This document shows positions 8,559 through 57,140 of a stretch of DNA of 64,000 nucleotides, piece by piece. Location: contig NZ_JARUKV010000005.1 in assembly GCF_029688865.1 (NCBI RefSeq), positions 124,001-188,000 on the forward strand. Reading direction: 5' to 3'. Below the pieces are notes generated by a model that was not told the DNA's origin, made no database searches, and saw only the letters and a program-made list of their open reading frames with translations. Within the stretch, counting starts at the first letter, position 1, and each line of letters begins with the position of its first letter. A program made the translations under genes and the position numbers. This DNA is from Natronococcus sp. A-GB7. Its GTDB lineage: Archaea > Halobacteriota > Halobacteria > Halobacteriales > Natrialbaceae.

Positions 8559-9194
8559 CTACTCGCTCGAGTCGATCCCGTGGCTCTCGAGCGCCAGCGT
8601 CTCCGGATCGAGTTCGTAGTAGCGCTCCCAGGCCGGCGCGAGGCTTACGACGCGGGAGCCTGCGATCTCGGCCTCGCGGTGGCGGTGGTGGTGACCCACG
8701 AGACAGAGATCGGGTGAGAGCACCTCGAGCAGGTCGTCGACGTGCTCGCAGCCGGGATCGTAGCCGTACGACAGCAGTCCGGTCGGGGCCTCGTGGACGA
8801 GGAGGACGTCGACGTTCGAGAGCTCGGCCGCCCGCTCGACGTCCTCGCGAGTGAAGTGTCGGCGTCGGTCCCCGGAGAGCTCGGATCGGGGCAGGTCGTA
8901 CTTCGTCGGTGCGTGGTTGCCCGACAGCCCCGCCACGCGGACGCCCTCGACGGTCGCCGCCGTGCTCGCCAGCAGGTGGACGTTCCGGGTTCCCGCGGTC
9001 TCGCCGGCTCGCAACGCCTCGATCGTGTCGAACTCCTCGTTGTTGCCCGCGGCGAACCACGTCGGCGCCGGCAGCTCGTAGCACTCGAGGTCGCCAACCT
9101 GCAGGACGGCGTCGGGCTCGAGTCTGCGGTAGTGGTCGAGAAGCGTCTCCCGTCGGTCCGGATCGGAGGCGTGTGCGTCGCCGAGCACGAGCAT
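8559..9194 (-). CDS. Calcineurin-like metallophosphoesterase
   Basis: A 211-residue phosphoesterase with the full metal-binding series: GDAHA (residues 5-9), GDLE, GNNE, and GHHHRH near 168-173. The small size and GNNE variant place it with the YfcE/MJ0936-like group that cleaves phosphodiesters or small phosphoesters. The natural substrate is unknown. It is convergent with the alpha/beta hydrolase gene with no gap. Confidence 0.85.
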   Translation of the reverse strand: MLVLGDAHASDPDRRETLLDHYRRLEPDAVLQVGDLECYELPAPTWFAAGNNEEFDTIEALRAGETAGTRNVHLLASTAATVEGVRVAGLSGNHAPTKYDLPRSELSGDRRRHFTREDVERAAELSNVDVLLVHEAPTGLLSYGYDPGCEHVDDLLEVLSPDLCLVGHHHRHREAEIAGSRVVSLAPAWERYYELDPETLALESHGIDSSE

Positions 9195-9288
9195 ACCGTC
9201 TCGAGGGGGCGGATCCGGAAATACTGCCGGCCCGCGGGAGGCACATTCAGGGAGCGGGGTTTAGGCGACGGACGGTGACAGCGCCAGT

Positions 9289-9462
9289 ATGAGCGAGACG
9301 CCCGAACGAGACGACCTCGAGTCGCCCGTAGACCGCAGCCGGAGCGAGCTTCGAACCAGCCGACTCGCCGACGGCACCTGGCTCGTCGCGAGCCGTCCGT
9401 CTCGAGGGACCGAGCCGGATCGACGCCTCGAGGGGCGATCCCGGACGGACCCGGAGGTGTGA
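9289..9462 (+). CDS. Small basic/polar hypothetical protein
   Basis: A 57-residue frame starting at ATG 9289 and ending three bases before the GTG of the next gene. The middle reads LRTSRLADGTWLVASRPSRG, which could form a short beta hairpin. There are no cysteines and no membrane segment. The close spacing to the LLM-class oxidoreductase suggests an operon. It is not a family I recognise, and expression is unproven. Confidence 0.4.
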   Translation: MSETPERDDLESPVDRSRSELRTSRLADGTWLVASRPSRGTEPDRRLEGRSRTDPEV

Positions 9463-9465
9463 ACC

Positions 9466-10431
9466 GTGGCCGAGATCGGTTTTCACGCCTCTCATGAGCA
9501 GTTCGCACCAAGCGACCTGCTCGAGTGTGTCGAGCTCGCCGACGAGTACGGGTTCGACGAGGTGCTTGCCTCCGATCACTTCCACCCCTGGAGCGAGCGC
9601 CAGGGCGAGTCGGGGTTCGTCTGGTCGTGGCTCGGATCGGCGATGGAGCGGACCTCGCTGTCGTTCGGCACCGTCAACGCGCCCGGCTACCGCTACCACC
9701 CGGCGATCATCGCGCAGGCGGCCGCGACGCTCCGGGAGATGTACCCCGAGCGATTCTGGTTCGCCGTCGGGAGCGGCCAGCTGATGAACGAGGGGGTCGC
9801 GGGCGTGGAGTGGCCCGTCAAGGACGAGCGCAACGCCCGCCTCGAGGAGTGCGCCGAGGTCATGCACCGGCTGTGGGGCGGCGAGGAGGTCACCCACCAC
9901 GGTCGGGTGGACGTCGAGCAGGCGACGCTGTACACCCGACCCGACTCCCCTCCGCCGCTGTTCGGCGCCGCCCTCTCCGAGGAGACCGCCCGCTGGCTCG
10001 GCACTCGCGAGTGGGTCGGGGGACTGATCACGATCGCGACGCCCGACCACGAGGGTCTCGAGAGCCGGATCGAGGCGTTCCGCGAGAACGCCCCGGAGAA
10101 ACCGATCGCCCTCAAGGTTCAACTCGCCTACGACGAGGACGACGACGCGGCGCTGGAGGGCGCCTACGACCAGTGGCGCACCAACTGCGCGCCGGGATCG
10201 GTTACCCAGAAGCTGCGCACCCCCGAGGAGTTCGACGCACTGGGCGAGCAGGTCACCCGCGAGCAGGTCGAAGCGAGCGTCCGGATCTCGGCCGACCCGG
10301 AGGACCACCTCGAGTGGCTGCAGCGGGATCTCGAACTCGAGATCGACAAGCTCCTGTTGCACAACGTCACCCGCGAACAGGAGCTGTTTATCGAGGACTT
10401 CGGCGGGAAGGTGCTCCCCGAGCTCGAGTGA
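9466..10431 (+). CDS. LLM-class F420-dependent oxidoreductase
   Basis: A 321-residue TIM-barrel enzyme of the luciferase-like monooxygenase class, resembling F420-dependent glucose-6-phosphate dehydrogenase relatives. Recognisable parts are VELADEYGFDEVLASDHFHPW (split here: VELADEYGFDEV, then SDHFHPW), the substrate-side loop SFGTVNAPGYRYHPA, and FWFAVGSGQLMNE. It probably transfers hydride between coenzyme F420 and an unknown substrate in the cytoplasm. The GTG at 9466 is the natural start, three bases after the small preceding frame. Confidence 0.85.
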   Translation: MAEIGFHASHEQFAPSDLLECVELADEYGFDEVLASDHFHPWSERQGESGFVWSWLGSAMERTSLSFGTVNAPGYRYHPAIIAQAAATLREMYPERFWFAVGSGQLMNEGVAGVEWPVKDERNARLEECAEVMHRLWGGEEVTHHGRVDVEQATLYTRPDSPPPLFGAALSEETARWLGTREWVGGLITIATPDHEGLESRIEAFRENAPEKPIALKVQLAYDEDDDAALEGAYDQWRTNCAPGSVTQKLRTPEEFDALGEQVTREQVEASVRISADPEDHLEWLQRDLELEIDKLLLHNVTREQELFIEDFGGKVLPELE

Positions 10432-49420: not shown

Positions 49421-50332
49421 TCACTCGATCTCGATCGCACCGTACATGAAGCCGGCGTGAGGCGAGCAGTAGTACGCCTGGGTTCCCGGTTCGTCTGCCT
49501 GCCACTCGACGGTCGCTCCCTCGCTCGAGATCGTCGAATCGAACACCTCGCCACCGCCGCTCCGGACCTCGATGTCGTCGGTCGACGTGACCGTGTGGAA
49601 GACGCCGTCGGTGTTGACCCACTCGATCGTCGTCCCCTCGTCGACCGTGACGAACGCGGGGTCGAAGACGAAGTCGGGCTCGCCGTCCTCGCCCTGGCGG
49701 GTCTCGACCGTCACGACGTCCTCGCCAGTCACGTCGACGAACTCCTCGTCGACGGCTTCGTCCTCGTCGTCAGCGTCCTCGTCGTCGGCATCCGCATCGT
49801 CAGCGTCCTCGTCGACACCTTCGGGATCCTCGTGGATCTCCTCGGCGTCCTCGAACTCCTCGTCGTCGACGTCGCCGACGGCCAGCGTGCCGATCATGAA
49901 GCCGACGTGGGGCTCGCAGTAGTAGTGCTGGAGCCCCTCCTCCTCCGGGGTCCACTCGACGGTATCGCCCTCTGCGGCGAGCTCCTCGTTGAACTCGCCG
50001 CTCTCGGATCGGGTCTCGAGGGAGTCCGTCGACGTGACCGTGTGGAAGACGCCGTCGGTGTTGACCCACCGGACGGTATCGCCGGGCTCGAGTTCCGCAA
50101 TCGACGGATCGAAGACGAAGTTCGGCTCGCCGTCCTCGCCCTCGCGGGTCTCGATCTCGACGACGTCCTCGTCGGTTTCCGCGTCATCGGCTTCCGCGTC
50201 GCCGTCGGTTCCTGCGTCCTCGTCGTCGGCTTCCTCGTCGCCGACGCAGCCGGCGAGGGAGGCGAGCCCGACCGCGCCGGCGCTCGCCGCGCCGACCAAC
50301 ACCCGCCGACGACTCGGTGCTCGGTCGTCCAT
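49421..50332 (-). CDS. Double-domain halocyanin (tandem cupredoxin) lipoprotein
   Basis: A 303-residue exported blue copper protein. Residues 1-29 form a Tat signal with lipobox LAGC (RRR at 8-10, Cys29). Domain 1 (about 57-152) has ligands His97, Cys139, His142 and Met146; domain 2 (about 205-303) has His246, Cys289, His292 and Met296. The domains share FVFDP, WVNTDGVFHTVTSTD and PHxGFM segments, and an acidic linker joins them. It should carry electrons outside the membrane. It begins 6 bp after the stop of the other duplicated lipoprotein gene. Confidence 0.9.
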   Translation of the reverse strand: MDDRAPSRRRVLVGAASAGAVGLASLAGCVGDEEADDEDAGTDGDAEADDAETDEDVVEIETREGEDGEPNFVFDPSIAELEPGDTVRWVNTDGVFHTVTSTDSLETRSESGEFNEELAAEGDTVEWTPEEEGLQHYYCEPHVGFMIGTLAVGDVDDEEFEDAEEIHEDPEGVDEDADDADADDEDADDEDEAVDEEFVDVTGEDVVTVETRQGEDGEPDFVFDPAFVTVDEGTTIEWVNTDGVFHTVTSTDDIEVRSGGGEVFDSTISSEGATVEWQADEPGTQAYYCSPHAGFMYGAIEIE

Positions 50333-50338
50333 CGATCG

Positions 50339-51460
50339 TTACTCCTCGACGGGCGTGGGCATGAACTCCCGATCGATACCGACTTCGACGTCGCCCCACG
50401 GCATCTCGTGGCCGCGGGTCGCGTGGTGGACGAGCCACGTGCCCCACTGCTCGGGGTCCTGGGCGCCGTGGCCGGCCTCCCAGCTGTCGGCCTCGTGTTT
50501 GTGGAAGTGCGTGAACTCGTCCTCCTGGCTGGCGGGAATGTCGTCGCTCGTGAACTGACCGCGGACACCCATTCCGAAGTAGATCAGGTTCTCGGCTTCC
50601 TCGACGGCAGGCTCGTCCCAGTGGAGGAAGATGAACGTCTCCTCGCTGACCCACTTCCAGACGTGTGCGGGCGTGCCGTGTGGAGCGTCGTCCTGCCCGG
50701 TCGTCCAGCTATCGTCGAAGATCTCGAGGAGTTCGTCGCGGTCGTCGTCGTCGAGATCGTCCTCGCCGCCGTCGGGGGCCTCCCAGTCGACGTCGTGGCC
50801 CTCGCTTCCCTCCTCGGGCGGGGTCGGCATGAATCCGTAGTCGACCTGTGGTTCGATGGGCTCGTCGTGGAACGGGTACTCGATCTCCCGAACCGCAATG
50901 TGGGTGAGCCAGTACCCCTCGTCGCCGGTTTCGCCGCCGTGGCCACCCTCCCAGCTGTCGGCCGTGTGCTGATGGAAGTGTGTAAACTCCTCGTCGGGCT
51001 GGCTCTCCTCGGTGAACAGTCCCTTCTGCCCGATCGTGATGTAATCGAGCTCCGTCGCCTCCTCCGGGTTCGGCTCGTTGAAATGCAGGCCGATCAGGTT
51101 CTCGTCGCTGACCCACTTCCAGACGTGTCGGGGCGTGTAGCTGCGTCCGTCGCCCTCGACCTCGTGTTGGTCCTCGTTCATCGGCTGATCGTCGAAGGCG
51201 TCGACGAGCGCCTGGATGTCCTCCTCCGAAAGCGATTCACCGGTCGGCGTCTCCTCGAGACTCGCGAGTTCCTCCGCATCCTCCTCTTCTTCCTCGTCGT
51301 CCATCTCGTTGTCATCGACGTCCTCATCATCGCCCTCGTCGTCCATCTCGTCGTCAGCGTCGTCGTCTCCCGCACAGCCGGCGAGTGCGACTACCCCTCC
51401 AGCACCGAGCGCTCGAATCACACGTCGTCTGTCTATCGGCTCCGATCGGTTGAGCGTCAT
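50339..51460 (-). CDS. Tandem-repeat His/Trp-motif lipoprotein, unknown function
   Basis: A 373-residue exported lipoprotein: Tat-type signal RRRVIRALGAGG, lipobox LAGC (Cys29), then an acidic linker to about 75. Two homologous domains follow (about 110-214 and 265-371). Each has HVWKWVSxE, then FTHFHQHTADSWEGGHG (159-175) or FTHFHKHEADSWEAGHG (316-332), then a FMPTP end. The many His and Trp suggest metal or heme binding, but no known cofactor motif fits. It is first in an operon with the double halocyanin. I do not recognise the domain. Confidence 0.75.
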   Translation of the reverse strand: MTLNRSEPIDRRRVIRALGAGGVVALAGCAGDDDADDEMDDEGDDEDVDDNEMDDEEEEEDAEELASLEETPTGESLSEEDIQALVDAFDDQPMNEDQHEVEGDGRSYTPRHVWKWVSDENLIGLHFNEPNPEEATELDYITIGQKGLFTEESQPDEEFTHFHQHTADSWEGGHGGETGDEGYWLTHIAVREIEYPFHDEPIEPQVDYGFMPTPPEEGSEGHDVDWEAPDGGEDDLDDDDRDELLEIFDDSWTTGQDDAPHGTPAHVWKWVSEETFIFLHWDEPAVEEAENLIYFGMGVRGQFTSDDIPASQEDEFTHFHKHEADSWEAGHGAQDPEQWGTWLVHHATRGHEMPWGDVEVGIDREFMPTPVEE

Positions 51461-51535
51461 ACGTACTCGGCTACGACCGATCGGTCCATGTCCCTATGCC
51501 GGTCGTGCACTTCCGATGCACACTCCGGAACGTGT

Positions 51536-51541
51536 TTTATA
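51536..51541 (-). promoter_or_regulatory. TATA box of the lipoprotein-halocyanin operon
   Basis: On the minus strand CTATAAAAC lies at about 51543-51535, some 75 bp upstream of the ATG at 51460. Transcription would begin near 51510. The gap 51461-51720 otherwise contains no gene. Confidence 0.45.
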
Positions 51542-51720
51542 GGAGTCTGAGACGCCGTCGCTCGGCCGGTTTCCGGAGCAGCTCAGTCAACAACGAGGAC
51601 GGAAGGACGAGCTGCTCGAGCCGGTGTCTGCCGACGAGCCGGCTCGCGGGGACGCGTCGAGGCTCCGACCCGTTCCGATCTCCGACGCCGACGAGACGTG
51701 TGGCTCCCCTACGCCGCCGC

Positions 51721-53430: not shown

Positions 53431-54639
53431 TCAGCGCTCTCGTCGGAGGTAGTCGACGACGGCGGCGGGTTCGGCGTCGAGCCCGCCGCCCTGGGCGAGC
53501 GTCTCGCCCCCGCCGCCGCCTCCGCCGAACTCCGCGGTGACGTCCTCGACGATCCCGCTCGCGTCCGTCTCGCCGGTCGTCGCCGCCACGACGAATGCGC
53601 TTCCGTCGACGCCCGTCAGCACGATGACGTCGCTGACTCGTCCGACGCTCTCCTGGGCCCGTTCGGACGCGTCGTTCGGACCGATTCCGTCGACGCCGAC
53701 GGTGCCGACGACCCACTCCTGGCCGTCCCGCGCGACCGCGTCGTCGGCGAGGGTCTCGAGCCGGTTCTCGAGCAGCCGTTCTCGAAGCCCGTCGAGCTCG
53801 GCCTCCAGTTCGGCGTTGCGTTCGGCGACGGCGCTCGCCCGCTCGGGCAGTTCCTCGACGCTGGTATCGAGGGCCCGCGCGGCCCGCTTCGTTGCCCGCG
53901 TGCGATCAGTCTCGGCCCGGATCGCGGCCGGCCCGACCGCGTACTCGACGCGGACGAGGTCCGCGCCGGGGTTCGAGATATCCAGCACCGCGATCGGACC
54001 GATCTCGATCGTGTTTCGGACGTGGGTGCCGCCACAGGCCGCGATATCCCAGTCCTCGATCTCGACGATCCGAACGGTGTCGGCCCGCTCGGCCTCAGGA
54101 GTGAGGTTGAAGACGATCTCGTCGTCCGCCCTGGCCCGTTCGATGTCCATCTCCCGCCAGGTTACCTGCCGGGAGTCCCAGACCGCCTCGGCGAGCAGCC
54201 GCTCGAGCGAGAGGGCGTCGATCGCCTCGGGCTCGCTCGTCTTAAAATCGATCCGACACTTCTCGGTTCCGATGTCGAACCCGCCGTAGCCGTGGTCCTC
54301 GAGCAGCCGCCTGCCGGCGCCGTACAGCAGGTGACTGGCGGTGTGAGCCCGCATACAGTAGGTGCGAAACTCCTCGTCGATCGAGCCGACGACCGACTCG
54401 CCGGGTTCGAAGTCGGGGGCCGACGCCAGCGTGTGGACGACCTCGCCGTCACGGGTCTGGACGTCAGTCACCTCGGCGTCCCCGATGGTTCCCGCGTCGG
54501 CCGGCTGGCCGCCGCCCTCGGGGTAGAAGTACGTCTCCTCGAGTCTGACGTCGGTTCCGTCGACTGCTCGTACCCTCGTCTCGAACTCCGTTACGTAGGG
54601 CTCCGCGGCGGCGCGGCTCCCGGTGGCGTCCGGTGTCAT
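53431..54639 (-). CDS. Alanyl-tRNA editing protein, AlaX-L type
   Basis: A 402-residue stand-alone editing factor that removes mischarged Ser or Gly from tRNA-Ala. It has the N-terminal beta barrel (YFYPEGGGQPADAGTIGD), the zinc motifs HTASH and CGGTH, a coiled coil (about 250-300), and a C-terminal DHHA1-type domain with GGGGGGETLAQGGG. This length and the DHHA1 domain mark the large AlaX type. I use ATG 54639. It is divergent from the folCP gene. Confidence 0.9.
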   Translation of the reverse strand: MTPDATGSRAAAEPYVTEFETRVRAVDGTDVRLEETYFYPEGGGQPADAGTIGDAEVTDVQTRDGEVVHTLASAPDFEPGESVVGSIDEEFRTYCMRAHTASHLLYGAGRRLLEDHGYGGFDIGTEKCRIDFKTSEPEAIDALSLERLLAEAVWDSRQVTWREMDIERARADDEIVFNLTPEAERADTVRIVEIEDWDIAACGGTHVRNTIEIGPIAVLDISNPGADLVRVEYAVGPAAIRAETDRTRATKRAARALDTSVEELPERASAVAERNAELEAELDGLRERLLENRLETLADDAVARDGQEWVVGTVGVDGIGPNDASERAQESVGRVSDVIVLTGVDGSAFVVAATTGETDASGIVEDVTAEFGGGGGGGETLAQGGGLDAEPAAVVDYLRRER

Positions 54640-54722
54640 CGTCACGAGCATCGGCGCGCGCAGTCATAACCGTGCGGGGCGGTGTCAGTACTTTCATAAT
54701 GGCGCCCGGCACCACGGTTGGT

Positions 54723-57140
54723 ATGGAGTACCACGAGTCGGTCGACTACCTCGAGTCGCTGCAACGACGGCGACCGAAACTCGGGACGGAGACGACCGCG
54801 ACGCTACTCTCGGAGCTCGGCCGACCGCACGAGGAGATCGACTGCGTCCAGATCGCGGGATCGAACGGAAAGGGGAGCACGGCGCGGATGCTCGAGCAAG
54901 TGCTCCGCGAGGACGGCCACGACGTCGGGCTCTACACCTCGCCGGACCTCGACGACGTGCGCGAGCGGATCCTCGTCGACGGGCGGAAGATTCCGAAGGA
55001 GCGAGTCTGCTCGTTCGTCGACGAGATCGAGAATGCGGTCGAACGGCTCCGAGAGGACGGGGACGCGCCGACGTACTTCGAGGTGCTCACGGCGCTTGCG
55101 CTCTCACACTTCGCCGCCGAGTCGGTCGACGTCGCCGTCCTCGAGGTCGGGATCGGCGGGCGCTACGACGCGACGAGCGCGGTCGATCCGATCGCAAGCG
55201 CGGTCACCAGCGTCAGCCTGGAGCATACGGACCTCCTCGGCGAGACGATCGAGGAGATCGCCCGGGACAAGGCCCAGGTCGCGCCCGCCGACGCGCCGCT
55301 GGTCACCGGCGCCGACGGGGCGGCCCTCGAGGCGATCCGGACGGAGACGGACGCGATCTCGGTCGGCGGCGACGGTGCGGACGTGGTCGCGACCGAACAC
55401 GGGCTGGACTCGCCCGTCGAGAGCGCGATCTCGATAACGGCGCCGGAGTGGTCGGTCGAGACGAACCTCCCGCTTCCCGGCACCCACCAGGCGACCAACG
55501 CCGGCGTCGCGGCGGTGCTGGCCGACCAGCTCGCGTCGGTCGACCCCGAGATGATCGCACGCGGGCTCCGCAAGGCTCACTGGCCCGGCCGCTTCGAGGT
55601 CGTCTCGAGGGCGCCGATCGCGGTGTTAGACGGCGCGCACAACCCTGGCGCCTGCGCGACGCTGGCGGATCTCCTCGAGCGCTACGCGTACGACGAGCTC
55701 CACCTGGTCTTCGGCGCGATGACCGAGAAGGACCACGAGGGGATGGTCGAGGCCCTTCCCGACCCCGACTCGGTCTTTCTCTGCCAGCCCAACGTCCCGC
55801 GAGCCGAGTCGCTCTCGGTTCTCGCCGATGCCTTCGAGGGACGGGCGGGTCGGATCGACCGCTCGGGGTCGGTCCTCGAGGCGACCGAGCGTGCGCTCTC
55901 GCGGGCCGACGAGGACGACATCGTGCTCGTCACCGGCTCGCTGTACGCGGTCGCCGAGGCGCGCGATCGGTGGTCCCGACTCCAGATCCCCAAACGGACG
56001 GAGACGGAGTCAGAGGCCCGATCGGTTCTTCGGGGAATGGGCCTCGAGGAATCGACCGTAGCGACAACCGCCGAACGGGCCGTCAGCCGAACGGTCAAGA
56101 CGTACCTGCGGGGACCCCAGGCCGATCGAATCCACGGGGTGTTCGAGGCGATCGGCGGGAGCTGTACGCTCTCGCCGACCGAGACTTCCACCCGTCGGGT
56201 AACGACGGTGCTCTCGGGAACGTACGCCCAGTTTCGGGAGCTGATCGACGAACTCGAGGACGACGAACTCGGGCTGGCTCACGTCTCGAGTCAGCTCCGG
56301 CGGATCGTCGACAACGCCGACCGTAGGAGAGACGGCGGACCGCTTCCCTGGGACCGGGAAACCGCTGTTATGGGCGTCCTGAACGTCACCCCCGACAGCT
56401 TCCACGACGGCGGGGAGTACGACGCCCTCGAGGACGCCGTCGCTCGCGCGAAGGCGATGGTCGAGGCGGGCGCCGACGTCGTCGACGTCGGCGGCGAGTC
56501 GACGCGGCCGGGCGCCGACCCCGTCCCCGTCGCCGAGGAGATCGACCGCGTCGTCCCCGTGATCGAAGCGCTCGCCGACCTCGAGGTTCCCGTCTCGGTC
56601 GACACGCGGAAGGCCGACGTCGCCGACGCGGCCCTCGAGGCGGGCGCCGAGATCGTCAACGACGTCTCCGGGCTCGAGGACCCCGAGATGCGGTTCATCG
56701 CCGCCGACCACGACGCCACCCTCGTCGTCACGCACAGCCTGGACACGCCTGTCGACCCCGATCGGGACGTCGCCTACGACGACGTCGTCGAGGAGGTCGT
56801 CTACGACCTCCAGGAGACGGTCCTACTGGCCGAGCGGGCCGGCCTCGATCGCGATCGGATCGTCGTCGATCCCGGGTTCGGGTTCGGCAAGAACCCAACA
56901 GAGTGCTTCGAGTTACTCTCCCGACTGGACGAGTTTCGGGCGCTCGGCTGTCCGGTGATGGTCGGTCACTCTCGCAAATCGATGTTCGAACGGATCGGCT
57001 GCGAGCCCGGGGATCGCCTCCCGCCGACGGTCGCGGTCACGACGATGGCGGCCGAGCGCGGCGCCGACGTCGTCCGCGTTCACGACGTCGCCGAGAGCGA
57101 CGCCGCGATTCGGACCGTTCGGGCGACCGACGGCCGGTAA
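54723..57140 (+). CDS. folCP: Bifunctional folylpolyglutamate synthase / dihydropteroate synthase
   Basis: An 805-residue fusion. Residues 1 to about 430 are a Mur-ligase-like FolC with the ATP loop AGSNGKGSTARML (45-57), HTDLLGETIEEIA and DGAHNPGA. From about 540 on is a dihydropteroate synthase with MGVLNVTPDSFHDGG (550-564), GGESTRPGA, and VMVGHSRKSMF. A segment of about 100 residues links them. It catalyses pterin-pABA condensation and glutamylation. The fusion is known in haloarchaea. ATG 54723 is the natural start. Confidence 0.93.
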   Translation: MEYHESVDYLESLQRRRPKLGTETTATLLSELGRPHEEIDCVQIAGSNGKGSTARMLEQVLREDGHDVGLYTSPDLDDVRERILVDGRKIPKERVCSFVDEIENAVERLREDGDAPTYFEVLTALALSHFAAESVDVAVLEVGIGGRYDATSAVDPIASAVTSVSLEHTDLLGETIEEIARDKAQVAPADAPLVTGADGAALEAIRTETDAISVGGDGADVVATEHGLDSPVESAISITAPEWSVETNLPLPGTHQATNAGVAAVLADQLASVDPEMIARGLRKAHWPGRFEVVSRAPIAVLDGAHNPGACATLADLLERYAYDELHLVFGAMTEKDHEGMVEALPDPDSVFLCQPNVPRAESLSVLADAFEGRAGRIDRSGSVLEATERALSRADEDDIVLVTGSLYAVAEARDRWSRLQIPKRTETESEARSVLRGMGLEESTVATTAERAVSRTVKTYLRGPQADRIHGVFEAIGGSCTLSPTETSTRRVTTVLSGTYAQFRELIDELEDDELGLAHVSSQLRRIVDNADRRRDGGPLPWDRETAVMGVLNVTPDSFHDGGEYDALEDAVARAKAMVEAGADVVDVGGESTRPGADPVPVAEEIDRVVPVIEALADLEVPVSVDTRKADVADAALEAGAEIVNDVSGLEDPEMRFIAADHDATLVVTHSLDTPVDPDRDVAYDDVVEEVVYDLQETVLLAERAGLDRDRIVVDPGFGFGKNPTECFELLSRLDEFRALGCPVMVGHSRKSMFERIGCEPGDRLPPTVAVTTMAAERGADVVRVHDVAESDAAIRTVRATDGR

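Follow-up and report, generated by a model that had tools for sequence, protein, structure and literature searches.

A two-copy six-histidine lipoprotein encoded directly upstream of a two-domain halocyanin in Natrialbaceae

Haloarchaea carry several halocyanins, but for most of them no redox partner is known. One candidate put forward is NirK (PMC9240420). In the stretch of DNA analyzed here (the window, 64,000 nucleotides from Natronococcus sp. A-GB7), a halocyanin gene follows a gene for a lipoprotein of unrecognized type, and the locus raises the question of what this lipoprotein does and whether it works together with the halocyanin. Having one halocyanin with a fixed, undescribed partner makes a specific redox partner testable. 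No description of the lipoprotein-halocyanin pair was found in the literature.

A pair of internally duplicated lipoproteins

Both open reading frames lie on the minus strand, with the lipoprotein gene first and the halocyanin gene downstream, and their positions and 6-bp spacing are as given in a first-pass annotation of the window (Table 1). Each protein has an N-terminal twin-arginine signal with an AGC lipobox, confirming the Tat-lipobox signals proposed for both, and an acidic linker follows the lipobox in each. Both proteins would be lipid-anchored at the outer face of the membrane.

Table 1. Positions of the gene pair and its features within the window
Feature	Position	Strand	Basis or remark
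Six-His Tat lipoprotein, 373 aa, two domain copies	50339..51460	-	Open reading frame; RR and AGC lipobox; no family match
Domain copy A, about aa 79-216; H112, H126, H161, H163, H174, H187, and D207 invariant	50813..51226	-	Coordinates derived from residue numbers
Domain copy B, about aa 240-373; H266, H280, H318, H320, H331, H345, and D363 invariant	50342..50743	-	AF2 model pLDDT 85
Intergenic gap, 6 bp	50333..50338	-	Consistent with a single transcript
Halocyanin lipoprotein (type-1 copper), 303 aa, two-domain	49421..50332	-	PF00127 twice; CEPHVGFM and CSPHAGFM copper loops
TATA-like element CCTATAAAACACGT, possible promoter	51530..51543	-	About 70-80 bp upstream of the first ATG; read by eye

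The halocyanin matched PF00127 over two stretches, with 92.4 bits against a cut-off of 21.2 (E 2.6e-26). Its copper-site motifs read HTVTS...YYCEPHVGFM and HTVTS...YYCSPHAGFM, and the His, Cys, His, and Met ligands of a type-1 copper site are kept in both domains, placing the protein in PF00127 and bearing out the claim that its 303 residues hold two complete copper sites. The cupredoxin halves share 59% identity over 101 columns (BLASTP E 4e-44), far beyond chance, and among the PF00127 hits in its own genome this is the only open reading frame with two such domains. The protein resembles the halocyanin and plastocyanin-azurin family (PF00127, TIGR03102) in its complete copper sites, Tat signal, and lipobox. 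It differs in its fixed position beside an undescribed lipoprotein and in falling narrowly below the TIGR03102 cut-off (87.7 bits against 93.8, over two stretches). In L042/L053, the start-proximal portion of the halocyanin gene is not in frame with what follows, through either a frameshift or an assembly error.

The six-histidine domain

The lipoprotein had no match in Pfam, NCBIfam, or PDB sequences, in agreement with the initial view that its domain was unrecognized, and the domain defines a protein family in none of these libraries. The two copies in the window are 51% identical over 113 columns (BLASTP E 3e-33), which is likewise far beyond chance; together with the cupredoxin halves, this substantiates the internal duplication reported for both exported proteins.

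Across 30 aligned domains, with identity down to 23%, every domain keeps the same six His and one Asp (in sequence order H, H, HxH, H, H, D), and both copies in the window carry the full set. L094, in which some of the conserved residues are missing, was left out of this alignment. Fourteen columns show no or almost no variation (P, H, H, A, G, H, H, H, W, H, A, D, F, and P), and the presence of six His among them is improbable from composition (binomial p about 1e-4). The motif FTHFHxHxADSWExGHG, by which the domain had been described, holds in the window. In the relatives, however, its HFHxH run does not keep the third His. The sole Cys of the window lipoprotein is Cys29, in the lipobox, and the same is true of the halophile orthologs (for L065, given a start at the Tat signal), leaving no Cys ligands. 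The six-His domain family is real, though uncharacterized. Because the six His and the Asp are invariant and the only Cys is that of the lipobox, we infer, with good support from the alignment, that these residues form a metal centre.

Cu,Zn superoxide dismutase uses a ligand set of six His and one Asp, including an HxH pair. The six-His domain is alike in all three respects, as an analogy of ligand sets only, but its ligand order differs, and it gave no Pfam hit to Cu,Zn superoxide dismutase. An SOD beta-barrel fold is possible; no entry for this enzyme was among the structure matches listed.

Structure prediction, which the first-pass annotation had proposed, gave a first AF2 model with a pLDDT of 74 and, with remote relatives added, a model with a pLDDT of 85 and a pTM of 0.80, but no significant Foldseek match (nothing at E<0.001 in the PDB or the viral library). 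In the model, about eight strands are accompanied by two helices, a short first one and a small second one, and the best VIA-align Z was 4.3. Judging from this model, the fold is possibly new. TTHB210 (PF18197) was rejected as a relative: raised by a motif and a noise-level VIA-align row, it gave an hhalign probability of 0.2 against two members, and PF18197 was absent from the 61 genomes of the family examined. A diverged cupredoxin was likewise rejected, with an hhalign probability of 0.1 against the neighboring halocyanin.

Distribution and gene neighborhoods

Of 391 Halobacteria genomes, 14 encode the tandem lipoprotein, and these all belong to the window's family; the named loci are all in Natrialbaceae. 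It is single-copy in the window's genome and occurs in four of eight congeners. A halocyanin gene lies directly downstream at every one of the 17 non-redundant Natrialbaceae loci (window included), and at the intact related loci the two genes are separated by -4 to +12 nt. As the flanking genes vary between loci, the pairing is not simply conserved regional synteny. Within Natrialbaceae, the cupredoxin link of the six-His lipoprotein is solid. No relative was present in viral contigs. The sole relative in the plasmid search was a Natronorubrum aibiense plasmid, and none was found on plasmids for two remote relatives used as queries. Bacteria were searched with two narrow peptide patterns only, and the distribution described here is that in archaea.

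Matching copy number had been taken as a sign of pairing. Six-His domains and cupredoxins stand at 2:2 in 12 of the 17 loci, 2:1 in four (L049, L050, L065, and L067), and 1:1 in one (L046). In an approximate tree, second copies cluster across genera, with the single L046 domain nested among them, which argues for an old duplication and for reduction (secondary loss) at L046. The deep branches of this tree are weakly resolved, and the L051 and L052 first copies stand apart from the remaining first copies. Given the 2:1 loci and a sole 1:1 halophile locus that reflects secondary loss, we reject copy-number coupling.

Several other genes recur nearby. Nine halophile loci have a TrmB-like regulator gene either next to the pair on its upstream side or one gene further away, and in L091 and L093 such a gene immediately precedes the six-His gene (regulator positions include L091 7424-7819, L065 7203-7577, and L105 about 9171-9509). 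Often just upstream of this regulator is a gene for a small protein with a YYCDTPMKLL motif and no Pfam match (L057 10986-11267; also L105). In the window's genome, a homologue of the TrmB-like regulator and the small YYCDTPMKLL protein are found on another contig. An upstream YncE-like beta-propeller lipoprotein is encoded at L056 (6164-7510) and L067 (10840-12147), and that of L056 has a weak, sub-cut-off Pfam hit to cytochrome d1.

The profile search suggested in the first pass did find relatives, all single-domain, in one archaeal family of the same phylum. mcrA is present in seven of the eight genomes with these relatives (the eighth is only 80% complete), which indicates methane- or alkane-cycling archaea; a Methanoperedens-like affiliation is a guess. 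L091 and L092 encode a hydrophobic N-terminal segment followed by a single domain in which no invariant residue is missing, and more remote relatives are found in L095 (hhalign E 6e-8), L094 (hhalign E 3e-6), L116, and L117. The proteins of L091, L092, L095, and L116 share with the window lipoprotein the same six His and Asp and are exported or membrane-anchored via their N-termini. They differ in having a single copy, in starting with a hydrophobic segment where the window protein has a Tat lipobox, and in the absence of a cupredoxin gene right next to them. Two further six-His genes are incomplete: that at L093 (8392-8829) is shortened, without the segment from the second His of the HxH through the WxxH His, and that at L079 (8871-9152) is damaged, without its 5' part.

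A halocyanin-trained profile detected no cupredoxin in loci L078, L079, L091-L094, L116, and L117. At L095, it detected a single-domain cupredoxin, confirmed by Pfam, about 2.8 kb from the six-His gene, in a cluster that also encodes a cytochrome P460-like protein, a DUF3179 protein, and two flavoprotein oxidoreductases. The mcr-bearing relatives mostly have no cupredoxin nearby. The proposed link of the domain to a cupredoxin holds at the 17 Natrialbaceae loci. In the mcr-bearing archaea, the domain partly occurs in the way that the first-pass annotation had named as counting against it, without such a neighbor. An adjacent cupredoxin is thus not needed in every lineage.

Candidate functions of the pair

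Our preferred reading, which we hold tentatively and derive from sequence and gene context, is that the lipoprotein is an exported redox domain protein with a metal centre, probably copper, that would exchange electrons with the blue-copper protein. The first protein would bind metal through the six His and Asp of its two copies of a small, mostly beta domain, with copper the most likely metal, possibly as two ions. The two-domain blue-copper carrier would then pass electrons between the membrane chain and the metal centre; this transfer, its direction, and the substrate are what we infer. Electron transfer between the two proteins would be the most economical function, and to call the pair respiratory is speculation.

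The observations that we count in favor of a redox function are the halocyanin neighbor throughout Natrialbaceae, the invariance of the six His and Asp, the restriction of Cys to the lipobox, the L095 cluster, a remote relative whose gene adjoins that of a CopB-like P-type ATPase, and the redox genes in several clusters (DsrE, DUF3179, dihydrolipoyl dehydrogenase, and NosZ). DUF3179 has selenocysteine-containing members (PMC9312934), and its presence suggests redox chemistry near the pair, which is no proof for the pair itself. Counted against a redox function are the mcr-bearing relatives that have no adjacent cupredoxin, the four loci at 2:1, and the lack of a matching solved fold with a known cofactor. 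A broader and doubtful extension is that this small secreted domain belongs to a new metalloenzyme or metalloredox class, with a six-His and one-Asp (possibly dinuclear) centre, a fold not in the PDB, an occurrence common to halophilic and mcr-bearing archaea, and a blue-copper redox partner.

The main rival, which we consider unlikely, is copper handling, whereby the six-His protein would be an extracytoplasmic copper buffer or a metallochaperone that loads or protects the halocyanin. The His-only ligand set and the cupredoxin neighbor are compatible with this, as is the genomic setting of the remote relative mentioned above, where an ArsR-type regulator accompanies the CopB-like ATPase (gene identities by eye). 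However, the protein lacks the Met-rich or Cys-rich motifs that exported copper chaperones typically have, and the remaining single-domain relatives have oxidoreductase rather than copper-export neighbors.

Rather improbable is a non-redox metal domain, for example a zinc domain with a structural or hydrolytic role, whose gene would merely be co-transcribed with that of the halocyanin. Six His and an Asp would suit Zn equally well, and relatives with no adjacent cupredoxin exist, but the halocyanin neighbor persists at 17 of 17 Natrialbaceae loci despite changing flanks.

We give still less weight to a halocyanin-fed accessory of nitrogen-oxide metabolism (N2O, NO, or hydroxylamine). On the Natronorubrum aibiense plasmid (L101, NZ_CP045490.1 185000-230000), the pair abuts nosL-nosY-nosF-nosD-nosZ, with genes for a DUF3179 protein, DsrE, and flavoprotein oxidoreductases on its other flank. 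Cytochrome P460-like genes also lie near six-His genes in two mcr-archaeal clusters (L095 11839-12348 and L079 8100-8609), one assigned by Pfam and the other by similarity to the first. Against this, nosZ occurs in 10 of the 16 genomes that carry the pair (one as a fragment) and in 13 of the 31 that lack it (p=0.23), and in the window's genome nosZ is on a different contig from the pair. With adjacency on one plasmid only and co-occurrence that is not significant, the denitrification link was rejected.

Finally, we rate as very improbable a domain that binds heme and is related in fold to cytochrome P460. In its favor, the P460 entries given by VIA-align span nearly all of the domain, at Z 3.4 (83 residues, rmsd 4.4 A) and 3.2, which is noise level. 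Against it, hhalign with a P460 protein gives a probability of 0.1, and CxxCH, the cytochrome P460 heme motif, is absent from the window lipoprotein, which also speaks against the heme dependence first offered as an option. Elsewhere in the window, an 835-aa open reading frame on the plus strand (54633-57140) joins, as judged by eye, a folylpolyglutamate-synthase-like part to a dihydropteroate-synthase-like part.
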